Source: Alistipes sp. (GTDB lineage: Bacteria; Bacteroidota; Bacteroidia; Bacteroidales; Rikenellaceae). Taken from it: 57,261 nt of DNA. The position numbers and the translations under genes were made by a program. The notes under the pieces were generated by a model. That model searched no databases, was not told the DNA's origin, and saw only the letters and a program-made list of their open reading frames with translations. The stretch spans positions 1 to 57,261 of the forward strand of contig JAGBWD010000030.1 of NCBI GenBank assembly GCA_017629985.1, in the 5' to 3' direction. This document shows, one piece after another, positions 1,943 to 42,510 of this stretch. How positions within the stretch are numbered: the first letter of the stretch is position 1; each line of letters starts with the position of its first letter.

Positions 1943-3169
1943 TTATTCTTGTTGTGCATCGCTCTTTGGGCGGGGCTTAAGGCCCACACGAGGGCAACGT
2001 GTAAACTCCTTGTTGCGATCGAAGAGATAGCGATATGTGGTGTGCATCTTATGCTTACGCGCACAGATATATCGCTCCACCATGCGGTTCATAACAGGGT
2101 TAAAGTCGCCAATCCACGCAAACTCAACACTCTTATATAGATTCTTATCGGTGCGGATGTAGTTGTCGAGCATAGCCTTCATAAATCCCGACTCAACACC
2201 CTTGCCCTGAAACTCGGGGGTGATGCCAAAGATTATCGCAAAGATTCTATCACATCTCTTGCGCACCTTCAAATCCCATAACATGCGAAGCTTATTGACG
2301 ATGCCAAACTTACCGTTATACTTACCTATCAGGCGGTTAAGGTCTGGAACCATAACAAAGAAGCCAATAGGCTCATCGTTAAAATAGGCAAACCAGATAA
2401 GGTTTCTATCAATAATCGGGCGCATAACATCTGCCATCTGATGAGCCTCCTCAACAGTCATAGGCTGAACTCCCGTAAAGAGCGACCACGCCTTGTTGTA
2501 TATCACGCGCAACTTCTCGACTGCAGAGTAGAGGCTCTCATTGCCAATGGATGCGAAACGATAACCTGGTGTGGACATCAAACGCTTGACGCGCTCATGA
2601 ACCACCTCATTTACATCATCGTCATAGATATTCCAAAGGTAGGTATTTTGGTTAAAGTAGTTCTGAAAGCCGTAATTCTCAAACAACGCCTTGTAGTATG
2701 GCAGATGATAGGGATTCTCAAAAAGGGGCTGATGCTCATAGCCCTCAACAAGAAGTCCCCACCACGCATCGCGCGAGCCAAAATTTATAGGGCCATCCAT
2801 AGCCTCCATACCTCGCTCTTTAAGCCAATCTCGCGAAGCATCAAACAGCACATTGGCAAGCTTCTGGTCATCTATAGCCTCAAAGAATCCACAACCTCCT
2901 GTAGGCTGCTCATATCCAAAGGCATGACCCTTATCGTAAAACGCCGCTATACGTCCTACACACTCTCCCTCTTCATTATAAGCGACCCAACGGATAGCCT
3001 CGCCATCCTTAAACAGCTTGTTTTTCGCAGGGTCAAAGACCGCTAAAATAGAGCTGTCGAAGGGGCATACCCAGTTAGGGTTACCCTTATATATATATTT
3101 GGGCAGATCAAGAAACTCGCGTTCTAGCCTCTTATCTCCACACTTTACCTCAACTAATCTATATTTCAT
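1943..3169 (-). CDS. GNAT-fold acetyltransferase-like protein, function unknown
   Basis: A 408-residue cytosolic protein without a signal peptide. It resembles a group of Bacteroidetes proteins annotated as GNAT-family or hypothetical. Suggestive features are RWVAYNEEGECVGRIAAFYD (about 60-79), typical of a GNAT beta-strand pair, and a C-terminal half with IGFFVMVPDLN and FQGKGVESGFMKAML, the latter resembling the acetyl-CoA pyrophosphate loop (Q/RxxGxG/A). The middle is rich in Trp, Tyr and Asn. It lies directly upstream of gcvT in the same direction, but no functional link can be read. The substrate is unknown. The start at 3169 is followed by a conserved-looking MKYRLVEVKC. Confidence 0.6.
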   Translation of the reverse strand: MKYRLVEVKCGDKRLEREFLDLPKYIYKGNPNWVCPFDSSILAVFDPAKNKLFKDGEAIRWVAYNEEGECVGRIAAFYDKGHAFGYEQPTGGCGFFEAIDDQKLANVLFDASRDWLKERGMEAMDGPINFGSRDAWWGLLVEGYEHQPLFENPYHLPYYKALFENYGFQNYFNQNTYLWNIYDDDVNEVVHERVKRLMSTPGYRFASIGNESLYSAVEKLRVIYNKAWSLFTGVQPMTVEEAHQMADVMRPIIDRNLIWFAYFNDEPIGFFVMVPDLNRLIGKYNGKFGIVNKLRMLWDLKVRKRCDRIFAIIFGITPEFQGKGVESGFMKAMLDNYIRTDKNLYKSVEFAWIGDFNPVMNRMVERYICARKHKMHTTYRYLFDRNKEFTRCPRVGLKPRPKSDAQQE

Positions 3170-5770: not shown

Positions 5771-6219
5771 GGTTGTTGATACAGCGCGTTACAGAGGCGC
5801 GATGCCATATTAACGGAGAGGTATTCTCACAGATAGGCAAGGGCCTTGTTGTACTTGTCGGCGTGGGTGTCGATGAGGGTGACGAAGATATAGCATGGCT
5901 CACGAAGAAGCTCATACAGCTACGAATTTTTGACGATGAGGCGGGGGTGATGAACCTCTCGGTGGAGGATATAAAGGGCGATATCATGATTGTCAGCCAA
6001 TTTACACTCCACGCCCTCACAAAAAAGGGAAACCGTCCCTCGTGGATAAAGGCTGCCCCAGAGGCGATATCCAAGCCACTCTATGAGGCCTTCGTTCGCA
6101 GCGTGAGGGAGGCACTAGGAAGAGATGTAGCCACGGGAGAGTTTGGAGCAGACATGAAGATAGAGCTTACAAATGATGGTCCCGTAACAATATGGATAGA
6201 TTCTAAAAACAGAGAATAA
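5767..6219 (+). CDS. dtd: D-aminoacyl-tRNA deacylase
   Basis: Hydrolyses D-aminoacyl-tRNA (and mischarged Gly-tRNA-Ala) as a proofreading enzyme. At 150 residues it matches the DTD1 family. The two active-site signatures of the dimer interface are present: SQFTLHA in the middle and NDGPVTIWID at the C terminus (the Gly-cisPro motif, NxGPVT). It starts with the usual MRLLIQRV. It overlaps the gene before it by 4 bases and the nuclease gene after it by 1 base. Confidence 0.95.
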   Translation: MRLLIQRVTEARCHINGEVFSQIGKGLVVLVGVGVDEGDEDIAWLTKKLIQLRIFDDEAGVMNLSVEDIKGDIMIVSQFTLHALTKKGNRPSWIKAAPEAISKPLYEAFVRSVREALGRDVATGEFGADMKIELTNDGPVTIWIDSKNRE

Positions 6220-38526: not shown

Positions 38527-38730
38527 ATGGAAGGACGAGTAAAATGGTTCGATGACAAGCGTGGCTACGGCTTCATCACGGGTGATGATGGCGTGGATAC
38601 ATACGTACACTACACCGCTATTGCGAATGATGGTTACCGCACCCTGAAGCATAACTGGCGTGTTACGTATGATGTCGTGGAGAGCCAAAAAGGCCATAAG
38701 GAGGCGCGCAATGTTGTTGTGATACGCTAA
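38527..38730 (+). CDS. Cold-shock domain protein
   Basis: A 67-residue single-domain RNA/DNA-binding protein of the CspA family. It starts at the ATG at 38527 with MEGRVKWFDDKRGYGFITGD; KRGYGFI is RNP1, and DTYVHYTAI is RNP2 (VFVHxxxI in CspA, here TYVHY). The C-terminal strand is VTYDVVESQKGHKEARNVVVI. It likely melts RNA structure. It lies just upstream of the met leader in the same direction; no terminator was seen between them, but the met operon has its own promoter. Confidence 0.93.
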   Translation: MEGRVKWFDDKRGYGFITGDDGVDTYVHYTAIANDGYRTLKHNWRVTYDVVESQKGHKEARNVVVIR

Positions 38731-38757
38731 TCACAAACTACATCAAGGGGATAAAAA

Positions 38758-38788
38758 TTTGCATTATTAAAAATTTTTACTACCTTTG
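38758..38788 (+). promoter_or_regulatory. Promoter of the met leader-metY-metX-hom operon
   Basis: TTTG (38758-38761), a 19-nt spacer and TACCTTTG (38781-38788), a perfect consensus. Transcription should start near 38795, about 14 bases before the leader ORF. Confidence 0.88.
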
Positions 38789-38808
38789 TATAACCTACTA
38801 ACCTAACG

Positions 38809-38892
38809 ATGACCAACTTAAAGCATAGATACACCCTTTGTGATGCTGCTATCATGGCAGCCTCTGCTATCTCTATGCGAATGTGCCGCTAG
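38809..38892 (+). CDS. Putative 27-residue leader peptide of the met operon
   Basis: A short reading frame from the ATG at 38809 to the TAG at 38890-38892, placed right after the operon promoter. It reads MTNLKHRYTLC at the start and AIMAASAISMRMCR at the end. Met codons cluster at positions 16, 23 and 25, with Cys at 26 and the stop directly after Arg27. The last codons and the stop sit in a small hairpin (gtgcc 38883-38887 with ggcac 38892-38896). This arrangement fits an attenuator peptide that senses Met (or Cys) charged tRNA. It has no signal peptide or domain. It is a prediction only. Confidence 0.6.
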   Translation: MTNLKHRYTLCDAAIMAASAISMRMCR

Positions 38893-39009
38893 GCACTATT
38901 ATACTATATGTGTAGTTACGTGCTACACTCCTCCCCAACCAACCTTACAACTTCGACTCCGCCATTTATAGTGGCGACATTTCATGTTACATATATTAAT
39001 TAATATACT
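38893..39009 (+). promoter_or_regulatory. Structured leader between the leader ORF and metY
   Basis: Two further hairpins lie between the leader ORF and metY: gtgtag/ctacac (38910-38915 with 38923-38928), and cgccat/gtggcg (38960-38965 with 38971-38976). A short acat/atgt pair follows. None has a U-run, so control by Rho or by ribosome access is as likely as an intrinsic terminator. I found no match to a SAM-II or other SAM riboswitch I could defend. Confidence 0.45.
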
Positions 39010-40293
39010 ATGTCTGATAATAAACTACATTTTGAGACCCTGCAGATACATGGTGGTTACAATGTTGATGAGTCTAATGCTCGAGGCATCGCCATACACC
39101 CTACTGCAGCATACCACTTCCCTTCGTGCGACTACGCCGCAAACCTTTTCACGTTGAGCGAGCCAGGATATATCTATACACGTCTTCACAACCCTACAAC
39201 CGCAGCATACGAGGAGCGTATCGCAGCCCTCTATGGTGGTGTAGGAGCTTTGGCCACAGCATCGGGCATGTCGGCAATACTGCTTACAGTAACAGCACTT
39301 GCCAAGGCTGGGGAGAATATCGTAGCCTCGCCATACCTCTATGGAGGCACACATAATCAGTTTGTCATCTCGTTGCGCAATGTTGGCATAGAGTGTCGTC
39401 TTGCCGCTAGCGACTCTGCGGAGGATATCGAGGCACTCATAGATGAAAATACACGTGCCGTATTTGCCGAGTCGATGGGTAACCCTACATGCCGTGTTGT
39501 AGATATCGAGGCCGTTGCAGATGTTGCTCACCGCCATAACATTCCGCTTATTATAGACAATACGTTTGGTGCTGGTGGCTACCTATGTAACCCCTTTGAG
39601 TGGGGTGCAGATATTATCACCGACTCTGCCACAAAGTGGATAAATGGCCATGGAACAGCCATGGGAGGTATCATCGTTGATAGCGGTAAGTTTGATTGGC
39701 GTGGCTCGGGTAAGTTCCCACAGATAGATGGCCCTTCGGAGGGATACCATGGTCTTAACCTTTGTGACGCCTTTGGTAATATGGCCTTCATAGTGAAGTG
39801 CCGCGTGGATGGCATGCGTGATTTCGGCTGCTGCCCTTCGCCCTTCGATGCCTACCTGATGCTTCTTGGCCTGGAGACCTTGTCGCTACGCGTGAAGCAC
39901 GAGGTGGAGTCTACATATAGGCTTGCGGAGTTCTGCCGCCAGCATCCCAAGGTGGAGCGTGTGAGCTTCGTAGGTTTTGAGGATCACCCCTCACATGCCT
40001 TGGCACAGAAGTACTATCGCTTTGGTGCATCGGCAGTTATGACCATAGAGCTTAAGGGTAACCTAGACTCTACAGTTAAGTTTGTTGAGAGCCTCAAGCT
40101 CTCGGGCAATATGACCATGATTGGTGACTCTATATCTGTTGTCACACACCCTGCCTCGACCACACATAAGCAGCTCTCGGAGGAGGCAAAGCGTGCGGCG
40201 GGCATCACACCTACGCTTCTACGCATCTCCCTCGGCTTGGAGAATGTGGAGGATATCATTGCCGACTACGAGCAGGCCTTGTCGAATATTTAA
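39010..40293 (+). CDS. metY: O-acetylhomoserine sulfhydrylase
   Basis: Makes homocysteine from O-acetylhomoserine and sulfide, with PLP. It has 427 residues, the normal length for MetY. The PLP lysine is Lys209 in DSATKWINGHGTAMGG. Other family motifs are LHIHGGYNVDESNARGIAIHPT-like features at the start (here LQIHGGYNVDESNARGIAIH), YTRLHNPTTAAYEERIAAL, ASGMSAILLT and IIDNTFGAGGYLCNPFEWGAD. It is the first structural gene after the leader; metX follows 10 bases after its stop. The long insertion after the active site (SEGYHGLNLCDAFG) fits MetY rather than MetB or MetC. Confidence 0.95.
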   Translation: MSDNKLHFETLQIHGGYNVDESNARGIAIHPTAAYHFPSCDYAANLFTLSEPGYIYTRLHNPTTAAYEERIAALYGGVGALATASGMSAILLTVTALAKAGENIVASPYLYGGTHNQFVISLRNVGIECRLAASDSAEDIEALIDENTRAVFAESMGNPTCRVVDIEAVADVAHRHNIPLIIDNTFGAGGYLCNPFEWGADIITDSATKWINGHGTAMGGIIVDSGKFDWRGSGKFPQIDGPSEGYHGLNLCDAFGNMAFIVKCRVDGMRDFGCCPSPFDAYLMLLGLETLSLRVKHEVESTYRLAEFCRQHPKVERVSFVGFEDHPSHALAQKYYRFGASAVMTIELKGNLDSTVKFVESLKLSGNMTMIGDSISVVTHPASTTHKQLSEEAKRAAGITPTLLRISLGLENVEDIIADYEQALSNI

Positions 40294-40303
40294 TCTTCGG
40301 ATA

Positions 40304-41326
40304 ATGAGCCACGTATACAACCATACAGAGCCTGTAACACTGGAGTCTGGAGCCATACTTCCCGAGGTAAGCATCACCTACGACACCTTCGGAGAGCTAA
40401 ATGCCGCAAGGGACAACGTGATATGGGTATGTCACGCCCTCACGGCCAACTCCGATGTTGCAGATTGGTGGCCTCACACCGTTGAGGAGGGTCGCTTCCT
40501 CGACCCTACGCGCTACTTCATTGTCTGCGCCAACTTCCTAGGCTCACACTATGGCACCACCTCACCGCTATCGGTAAACCCTGCAACGGGAGAGAAGTAT
40601 TACTACGACTTTCCACAGATTACGGTACGCGACATGGTTCATTGCCATCAGCTTCTTGCTCGTCACCTGGGTATCGAGCGTGTTAAGATGCTTATAGGAA
40701 GCTCCATAGGTGGTTTTCAGTGCATGGAGTGGGCGATTATGGAGCCACACTTTATGGAGAACCTAACTCTCATAGCTACCACCACATGTTCCGAGCCATG
40801 GGCTGCAGCATTCAACGAGTCGCAACGCATGGCGATACGCCTAGATAAGACATGGGGTGAGCGCAGAGATGATGCTGGCATAGATGGCATGGCCGTAGCA
40901 CGCTCCATAGCGCTAATCAGCTACCGCGGAGGTGCAGCATATAACGCCACACAGCAGGAGAGTGAGCCTCTGAACGAGGTCTCCTTCACACGCCGCGCAC
41001 ACAGCTACCAGCAGTATCAGGGCGAGAAGCTACGCCGTAGGTTTAACGCCATGTCATACTACCGCCTATCGGAGGCCGTAGACTCACATAACATTGCACG
41101 AGATAGGGGTAGCATCGCCGAGGCACTGCGACATATCGAGGCACGCACACTTGTTGTTGCTATAAGCTCCGATATTCTCTTTCCTCCCGAGGCGCACACG
41201 CCACTACGCGAGCATATCGCCAATGTGGAGTACCACCTCATAGAGTCGGAGTTTGGCCACGATGGCTTCCTCGTAGAGCATGATAAACTAAACAGGATTA
41301 TTAATAACTTTTTAAATACTAGATAA
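40304..41326 (+). CDS. metX: Homoserine O-acetyltransferase
   Basis: Transfers an acetyl group from acetyl-CoA to homoserine. The ATG at 40304 (MSHVYNHTEPVTLESGAILP) gives 340 residues. A longer frame that begins inside metY is rejected. The alpha/beta-hydrolase triad is visible: nucleophile Ser in LIGSSIGGFQCMEWA, Asp in AISSDILFPPEA, and His in SEFGHDGFLVEHD. VCHALTANSDVADWW is the oxyanion-side motif. It follows metY by 10 bases and precedes hom by 2 bases. Acetyl rather than succinyl use is inferred from the family and from its linkage to metY. Confidence 0.95.
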   Translation: MSHVYNHTEPVTLESGAILPEVSITYDTFGELNAARDNVIWVCHALTANSDVADWWPHTVEEGRFLDPTRYFIVCANFLGSHYGTTSPLSVNPATGEKYYYDFPQITVRDMVHCHQLLARHLGIERVKMLIGSSIGGFQCMEWAIMEPHFMENLTLIATTTCSEPWAAAFNESQRMAIRLDKTWGERRDDAGIDGMAVARSIALISYRGGAAYNATQQESEPLNEVSFTRRAHSYQQYQGEKLRRRFNAMSYYRLSEAVDSHNIARDRGSIAEALRHIEARTLVVAISSDILFPPEAHTPLREHIANVEYHLIESEFGHDGFLVEHDKLNRIINNFLNTR

Positions 41327-41328
41327 TT

Positions 41329-42510
41329 ATGAAAAACCTAAACATAGGACTTTTTGGTTTTGGTAATGTTGGCCGAGGCCTTTACGATGTTTTGCAGCGC
41401 ATAGAGTCAAACAACGTACATATAAAGCGCATCTGTGTTCGTGACTTGCAGAAGGAGCGTGGCGTGAAGGCTGAGTTCACCAACAATGCCGAGGATATCT
41501 TTAGTGACAGCGACATTAACCTTATTGTGGAGGTTATAGATGATGCAGAGGCTGCATACGAAATTGTTAAGCGTGCGTTGAAGGCGCGTATTCCTGTTGT
41601 GTCGGGCAACAAGAAGATGCTAGGTCACCACATCCTAGAGCTTATAGACCTTCAGGAGCAGTATAACACACCGCTGCTCTACGATGCTTCAGCATGTGGC
41701 TCTATACCTGTTATCCGCAACCTCGAGGAGTACTATGACAACGACCTTCTCACCTCTGTTAAGGGTATCCTCAACGGATCATCAAACTTCATTCTGTCGA
41801 AGATATTTAACGAACACATGAGCTACGATGCTGCCCTGAAGCTAGCGCAGGATTTAGGCTTTGCCGAGAGCAACCCTACTCTCGACATTGATGGCTGGGA
41901 CTCGCTCTATAAGCTGATAATCATCACCGTACACGCCTTTGGAGTATATGTAGCCCCAGAGAATATCCTCACCTATGGTATCTCTACGATGAATGACTCC
42001 GATATCCGCTTTGCACAGGAGAAGGATCGCCGTATAAAGCTTGTGGCACATGTGGAGAAGATTGACGACCGTCTTATTATGTGTGTACTTCCACAGCTTA
42101 TCTCACGCAACAAGTATATCTATAGTGTTGAGGATGAGTTTAATGGCGTAGTCATCAAGGGATTGTTCTACGACAAGCAGTTTATGTTTGGCCGTGGTGC
42201 TGGCGGTCACCCTACAGGCTCTGCAGTGTTGAGCGACATCACAGCCTGCAGCTATAACTACCGCTACGAGTATAAAAAGCGTAACGACTCTGTACTACCA
42301 CAGTATACCACCGACCACACCTTCCGCGTATACTTCCGTTATAAGAGTGCCGAGCAGCGCAACCTCCTCAACTTCACAAAGATTCGTGAGCAGTATACAT
42401 CAGATGAGTATAACTATATCGTTGGTGATGTTACCATCGCGAACCTCAAGGCACACCAGGAGGAGCTTCGCATTGGCGATTGCTTCGTAGCTGCATACCC
42501 TATCGACTAA
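41329..42510 (+). CDS. hom: Homoserine dehydrogenase (monofunctional)
   Basis: Reduces aspartate semialdehyde to homoserine. It has 393 residues and no aspartokinase domain. The N-terminal NAD(P) fold has GLFGFGNVGRGLYDVL (about 7-22). The catalytic region shows VSGNKKMLGHH, YDASACGSIPVIRNLEEYY, KGILNGSSNFILSKIF and GLFYDKQFMFGRGAGGHPTG. The last about 75 residues are less typical and may be a small regulatory tail. It begins 2 bases after metX, so the operon supplies its own homoserine for methionine. Downstream begins the tandem repeat block, with no clear classical terminator. Confidence 0.93.
   Translation: MKNLNIGLFGFGNVGRGLYDVLQRIESNNVHIKRICVRDLQKERGVKAEFTNNAEDIFSDSDINLIVEVIDDAEAAYEIVKRALKARIPVVSGNKKMLGHHILELIDLQEQYNTPLLYDASACGSIPVIRNLEEYYDNDLLTSVKGILNGSSNFILSKIFNEHMSYDAALKLAQDLGFAESNPTLDIDGWDSLYKLIIITVHAFGVYVAPENILTYGISTMNDSDIRFAQEKDRRIKLVAHVEKIDDRLIMCVLPQLISRNKYIYSVEDEFNGVVIKGLFYDKQFMFGRGAGGHPTGSAVLSDITACSYNYRYEYKKRNDSVLPQYTTDHTFRVYFRYKSAEQRNLLNFTKIREQYTSDEYNYIVGDVTIANLKAHQEELRIGDCFVAAYPID

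Follow-up and report, generated by a model that had tools for sequence, protein, structure and literature searches.

The metY-metX-hom operon in a genome of Alistipes sp. starts with a leader that carries a Met-rich 27-codon ORF (38809-38892), separated from metY by 117 nt. With a probability of about 0.78, this region is a translated Met-rich leader that would control metY-metX-hom by translation-coupled mRNA fate, i.e. by attenuation. Probably, the leader is a switch that turns the operon on when methionine is short. At low levels of Met-tRNA, ribosomes would stall on the Met codons of the leader and the operon would be expressed. When methionine is plentiful, the ribosome would reach the UAG located inside hairpin H1 and leave, and expression would end early. 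All positions refer to the window, i.e. the complete stretch of 57,261 nt that was analysed and whose source genome is incomplete (83.81%). A preliminary description had read the layout of a translation-coupled Met attenuator from this DNA. This is supported by the frame statistics, the linkage to metY and a terminator-type attenuator in a sister group. New compared to that description are the proof of the reading frame, the nearly invariant core, the covariation of hairpin H2, the sister design with a terminator and the SAM-II riboswitch at metK.

Promoter, leader ORF and operon genes

The promoter (38758-38788, + strand) is composed of TTTG (38758-38761), a 19-nt spacer and TACCTTTG (38781-38788). 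TTTG-N19-TACCTTTG corresponds to a promoter of the Bacteroidota type. A generic sigma-70 scan did not report it at 38758-38788. Upstream of 64 non-redundant homologous leaders, TAnnTTTG is present in 60 cases compared to 5.0 in shuffles, and 31 cases have the complete form with both boxes (0.16 in shuffles). This enrichment places the promoter far beyond chance, so that the promoter assumed earlier was borne out both by the window itself and by its recurrence upstream of homologues. A 67-codon gene for a cold-shock-domain protein is located directly 5' of the leader (window 38527-38730).

The leader ORF (38809-38892, +) comprises 27 codons plus stop, MTNLKHRYTLCDAAIMAASAISMRMCR, with ATG at 38809 and a TAG that ends at 38892. 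As noted before, it terminates with ...ISMRMCR-stop and has three Met and one Cys among its last twelve residues. It is followed on the same strand by metY (39010-40293) encoding O-acetylhomoserine aminocarboxypropyltransferase (TIGR01326, 561 bits, above cut-off), metX (40310-41326) for homoserine O-acetyltransferase (best match TIGR01392 with 343 bits, below the cut-off of 500) and hom (41329-42510) for homoserine dehydrogenase (NF004976, 303 bits, above cut-off). The predicted fold of 38797-39012 has -48.2 kcal/mol compared to a shuffled mean of -34.4 (z -3.97), and none of 200 shuffles was as good. All three hairpins described at first sight, one comprising the final codons and the stop (H1) and two more before metY (H2 and H3), are predicted.

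Linkage to metY and distribution

A pattern search for the core at the end of the ORF (see below) yielded 67 matches in 66 of 250 Rikenellaceae genomes, and the control with the reversed pattern gave 0 in every genome. Downstream of all 67 matches, metY is found at a distance of 93-244 nt. In addition, metX and hom are present at all 33 loci with at least 4 kb of downstream sequence, out of 70 loci with a metY match. Comparison across these genomes assigns the leader to the metY-metX-hom operon. A covariance model detected the leader in 73 of the 250 family genomes at E ≤0.1 and in 70 at ≤1e-5. The 71 model matches at ≤1e-5 comprise the 67 pattern matches and four variants. As all of them precede metY, matches at this level reveal no other gene under the same core in the family.

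A metY match (1e-60) is found in 202 of the 250 genomes and lacking in 48, and of 60 metY upstream regions that do not contain the exact core, 48 are also devoid of a Met-rich sORF. Hence, not every member of the family has the leader. The exact core was rejected as an order-wide element: the pattern occurs in three of 393 genomes drawn, one of them the window's own, which makes it mainly an element of the Rikenellaceae. Visual inspection of the class-wide matches among 395 genomes (G407, G586 and G379) revealed no leader layout. When 251 genomes from the family of a Prevotella match were scanned under strict filters, the model was found in one, that genome itself.

Most of the named core loci come from MAGs listed as Alistipes sp. 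or Rikenellaceae, many of which derive from the guts of ruminants, and some belong to Tidjanibacter. Other carriers are Prevotella brunnea, P. ihumii, P. corporis, one Muribaculaceae MAG and one Bacteroidales MAG. A pattern that leaves the H1 loop free found 86 stretches, for which about 7 or 8 chance matches are expected in a rough estimate with uniform bases. Among the 80 listed, 69 have metY in reach. Two of the 11 listed matches without metY (L183 and L198) are cut by contig ends, and a third (L202) is a Prevotella leader. This leader of P. corporis (L202:6806-6827) is almost letter-identical to those of P. brunnea and P. ihumii and is followed by a different frame instead of metY, possibly due to a rearrangement. 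In the MAG with the label Muribaculaceae, the leader (L199, minus strand near 3116) is accompanied by a metY 86% identical to that of the window, which may reflect transfer or a binning error. The core ATGCGAATGTGCCNNNNGGCAC is also present in a Cys/Met-rich sORF of a Phocaeicola MAG (L203:5475-5497, MRRYTLNRCSEWQKRCCCCLDMRMCLPARCMD) at a contig end and in a likewise Cys/Met-rich sORF of Parabacteroides massiliensis (L220, minus strand near 6032), both with no link to metY. For the first 86 residues of the protein behind the P. massiliensis sORF, no family match was obtained. These two cores may be due to chance or indicate a wider leader family.

Translation of the leader peptide

Frame statistics were calculated for 64 non-redundant leaders out of 80 distinct ones that had been found by their core. 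In the 15 codons 5' of MRMC, ATG occurs 160 times in frame vs. 3 and 0 times in the other frames, and stop codons are found 0 times in frame vs. 73 and 29 times. Met accounts for 16.7% of the 15 residues that precede the core. By comparison of relatives, the leader ORF is translated and its Met codons are selected; translation follows from the excess of ATG and the absence of stops in frame. Among the 60 leaders for which a promoter was recognised, peptide sequences are highly diverse and lengths range from 13 to 43 residues (median 28). Their start codons are ATG (51), TTG (5) and GTG (4), and most are located about 20 nt 3' of the promoter element. In 37 of these 60 peptides, residues 4-12 close to the N terminus contain a weak [NDE]I motif. 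Some distant leaders (L079, L081-L083 and L201) contain few Met residues outside the core. In the preliminary description, a lack of conservation of the ORF or of its Met/Cys codons in relatives was considered one refuting outcome. Both proved to be conserved.

The nearly invariant core and hairpin H1

The ORF ends in a nearly invariant core, ATGCGAATGTGCCGCTAGGCAC (38875-38896, +), which was detected by pattern searches in relatives and comprises the codons for MRMCR, the stop codon and GCAC. In homologues, the core ATGCGAATGTGCCGNTAGGCAC, with H1 across the stop codon, is almost invariant. H1 (38883-38896, +; GUGCC-GCUA-GGCAC) is a predicted hairpin whose 3' side is kept in the pattern matches. 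It extends from the final bases of the last Met codon across the Cys and Arg codons to beyond the stop. Since the retrieval patterns fix most of the core, its invariance in the 80 distinct leaders and that of H1 in the alignment are there by construction. Fair tests are provided by a pattern with CGN, TGY and a free 3' arm, by the loop-free pattern and by regions chosen because they lack the core. With the first pattern, CGA and TGC were found in 67 of 67 matches although CGN and TGY were permitted; in six genes of the window, CGA accounts for 9 of 151 Arg codons. The free 3' arm reads GGCAC in 62 matches and GGCGC, which allows a U-G pair, in three (L046, L056 and L067, outside the set of 80), and in the remaining two the loop is one base longer. 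The last Arg codon varies freely at its third base, which lies in the H1 loop (A in 16, T in 41, C in 7 and G in 3 cases). With the loop-free pattern, UAG is kept in 68 of the 69 metY-linked matches listed. In L070, L076 and L093 the loop is altered, yet an in-frame stop codon is retained. RMC-(R/L/Q)-stop is found in 63 of the 64 leaders, which were retrieved by a pattern that fixes the RMC bases. Leu and Gln are thus accepted at the last position, and in L124 the leader continues past the stop.

The predicted probability of H1 formation is 0.94 on average, with 0.00 in L076 and 0.17 in L042. H1 is conserved but displays no compensatory change: it hardly varies, so that covariation speaks neither for nor against it. 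The 3' arm of H1 has no conserved alternative partner, as the re-pairing probability exceeds 0.5 in only 24 of 64 leaders. Likewise, readthrough of the stop codon into metY was discarded, because in 49 of 63 leaders the frame 3' of the stop closes ahead of metY, and in 14 it is open.

The invariance of CGA and TGC exceeds what a simple counter of Met codons needs, and codon counting leaves the nearly invariant core unexplained. According to another reading, the leader encodes a termination-arrest peptide: ...MRMC(R), with UAG in the A site, would sense free Met, SAM or a related metabolite, the arrested ribosome would decide the fate of H1 and H2, and the upstream Met richness would be secondary. 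TnaC and SpeFL are termination-arrest peptides that sense a metabolite. The part common to all leaders is indeed formed by the last codons and the stop at a fixed distance from H2, and even the shortest leaders keep these last codons and the stop. However, an arrest peptide would account for invariant residues, whereas here the codons themselves do not change, the last residue is variable, one leader runs on beyond its stop, and other parts of the peptide are under strong selection for in-frame Met. Arrest is thus regarded as unlikely. A combined version is also conceivable, but speculative: the core CGAAUGUGCCGNUAGGCAC would be read twice, as codons and as a hairpin, and Met- or SAM-dependent arrest at UAG after the rare CGA would feed a terminator-less switch, such that one 27-codon gene senses both charged Met-tRNA, by its Met-rich stretch, and a free metabolite, by the core.

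Hairpin H2 and the downstream region

H2 (38910-38928, +) has a stem of 7 pairs and the loop UACGU. It was analysed in an alignment of 53 of the 64 leaders; 11 were omitted, most of them for odd loops or spacing (L199, L091, L093, L076, L070, L055, L180, L201, L124, L126 and L079). The compensating changes in the hairpins that had been proposed as a check are found in H2, where 75 cells are changed on both sides vs. 30.2 in shuffles. The covariation score of H2 is 0.300 vs. 0.153 in shuffles. Neither value was reached by any of 500 shuffles. Changes on both sides affect all 7 pairs, which was equally reached by 124 of 500 shuffles. In total, 79% of the H2 cells are paired; the outermost pair is weak, with 23 of 49 unpaired. 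Among the 53 aligned loops, position 2 is A in 49 and position 4 is G in 50. By this comparison, H2 is a conserved RNA hairpin. The distance between H1 and H2 is 12 nt in 36, 13 nt in 15 and 11 nt in two of the 53 leaders. A kissing interaction between both loops was considered, too. It has no support, because the third base of the H2 loop varies (C in 39, U in 9, A in 4 and G in one of the 53) while the H1 loop stays the same.

H2 is followed by a C-rich, G-poor and unstructured stretch (38929-38959, +), a candidate Rho loading site. In the group closest to the window, a 40-nt segment at and behind the 3' end of H2 has mean C and G fractions of 0.29 and 0.11 compared to 0.14 and 0.18 upstream. 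The same stretch has 0.21 C and 0.11 G in the second group and 0.28 C and 0.12 G in the remaining leaders. Hairpin H3 (38960-38976, +) is predicted, varies in relatives and has no U-run behind it. In the 64 window-type leaders, a search for a consistent intrinsic terminator was negative: two have a terminator-like run of at least 6 T and eight a run of 5 T. Both counts are above those expected from shuffles (0.3 and 0.7, respectively), so that a few members may have a terminator.

Absence of a SAM riboswitch from the metY leader

An Rfam scan at gathering scores gave no match in the window, seven related loci were negative as well, and a scan of 38600-39100 up to E 10 reported only two unrelated families. 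Owing to this lack of a covariance-model match, a SAM riboswitch was ruled out for the metY leader. The preliminary description, which had recognised none there and named such a match as its refutation, was correct in this point. However, a SAM-II riboswitch (RF01726, 63.2 bits) is located directly 5' of metK in the window's genome (L270:1505-1565, contig 35). The statement therefore holds for the metY operon and not for the genome. SAM-I (RF00162) was found in none of 37 genomes of the same genus, the window's own included, and in 9 of 24 others of the order. Sub-threshold SAM_alpha matches occur in five other genomes of the same genus, and a metK-like protein was seen by eye in the three that were opened.

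The core, H1 and H2 could also be an unrecognised aptamer or protein-binding site that acts as RNA only, with an incidental ORF. The near-perfect nucleotide conservation of the core, the GNUA loop of H1, the A/G constraint in the loop of H2 and the covariation of its stem would agree with such an element. By contrast, the frame statistics are not expected without translation, and Rfam recognises nothing in the window or the seven related loci. Such an element is very improbable.

A sister-group leader with a terminator

Sixty metY upstream regions that lack the exact core were searched for Met-rich sORFs. Twelve of them contain one vs. 0.4 in shuffled sequences and two on the reverse strand. 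Three of the 12 are variants of the window type, and nine represent another type. A fourth window-type variant (L126) has too few Met residues to be counted. All nine sister-type leaders contain 4-9 Met codons, and ATG occurs 43, 0 and 1 times in the three frames (135 codons each). The peptide has a Met run, e.g. MMMVMCMCSRICRV. All nine have a hairpin whose U-run begins 41-55 nt away from the stop codon. At the ORF end, CCGGG is able to pair with the 5' arm of this terminator; in nine of nine leaders, it lies exactly 17 nt downstream of the position where the last Met codon starts. The pairing between CCGGG and the terminator is better than in most shuffles, of which 0 to 24 out of 200 were equally good (L146 and L121 are weakest). 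According to the part of PMC4833913 that was available, the mRNA is covered for up to about 12 nt in front of a ribosome. With the 17-nt spacing, a ribosome that awaits Met would leave CCGGG free, and a ribosome that finishes the peptide would cover it. The nine leaders were first chosen by eye and the terminator script sought a CCGG hairpin before a U-run; a separate scan for Met-rich sORFs alone recovered the same nine. By its textbook layout, the sister-type leader is an ordinary and complete transcription attenuator at metY. It is the strongest support for the function proposed for the leader of the window.

Proposed mode of action

In the attenuation model, the off-switch of the sister group would be the intrinsic terminator. 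In the group of the window, its role would most likely be taken by Rho at the C-rich stretch, and control of translation or of mRNA decay are alternatives. Rho is the first guess because of the C-rich, G-poor composition and the analogy with the Cys leaders of Mycobacterium (see below). That the leader ORF is an antenna boosting metY translation by reinitiation, as proposed for leader genes near a main gene in the available text of PMC4833913, can practically be dismissed: the stop codon is 93-244 nt away from metY, far above the peak of 11-14 bp given there for Bacteroidetes, and an antenna would not select Met codons.

If attenuation applies, methionine control in gut relatives of Alistipes would combine a Met leader on metY-metX-hom with SAM-II on metK. 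The two leader designs at metY, with and without terminator, would constitute a natural test of terminator-less attenuation, and the invariant core poses a specific puzzle that can be tested.

Comparison with known systems

In the literature searched, mostly outside subscription journals, no report of a Met leader peptide in Bacteroidota was found. For B. thetaiotaomicron, sORFs in 5' UTRs reminiscent of leader peptides have been described, with no Met case in the part of the paper available (PMC7366714). The accessible part of PMC6892785 contains nothing on Met leaders. SAM-II (RF01726) serves Met metabolism and occurs in the same genome at metK, but it involves no peptide and does not match the metY leader. 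The metXZ element of beta-proteobacteria is likewise a conserved leader RNA before metX or metZ. In contrast to the leader studied here, it is modelled as a pseudoknot with terminators, the text at hand mentions no leader peptide, and it belongs to another phylum (PMC4239095).

Two parallels come from Actinobacteria. As far as the available text of PMC1262725 goes, the leaders of Mycobacterium cys operons also have regulatory codons near the stop and no terminator, and Rho was proposed as a possibility based on pyrimidine-rich stretches. They differ by runs of Cys instead of Met codons, and no conserved hairpins are reported there. In Streptomyces lividans, metL has been proposed as a Met leader (...RCMCRRMCAF) before metNIQ. 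According to the excerpt available, hairpins follow the peptide and a typical Rho-independent terminator is lacking (PMC8079986). However, metL is from another phylum, precedes a transporter operon and is leaderless.

The classical trp, his, leu and thr attenuators share with the window a short translated ORF rich in codons for the product before a biosynthetic operon, and the sister-group leaders resemble them also in terminator and antiterminator. By contrast, a consistent intrinsic terminator is missing from the window type, whose last codons together with the stop make up a nearly invariant hairpin core. The best reading of the window's leader is therefore a variant of the Met-leader attenuator, apparently new, with an unexplained invariant core.
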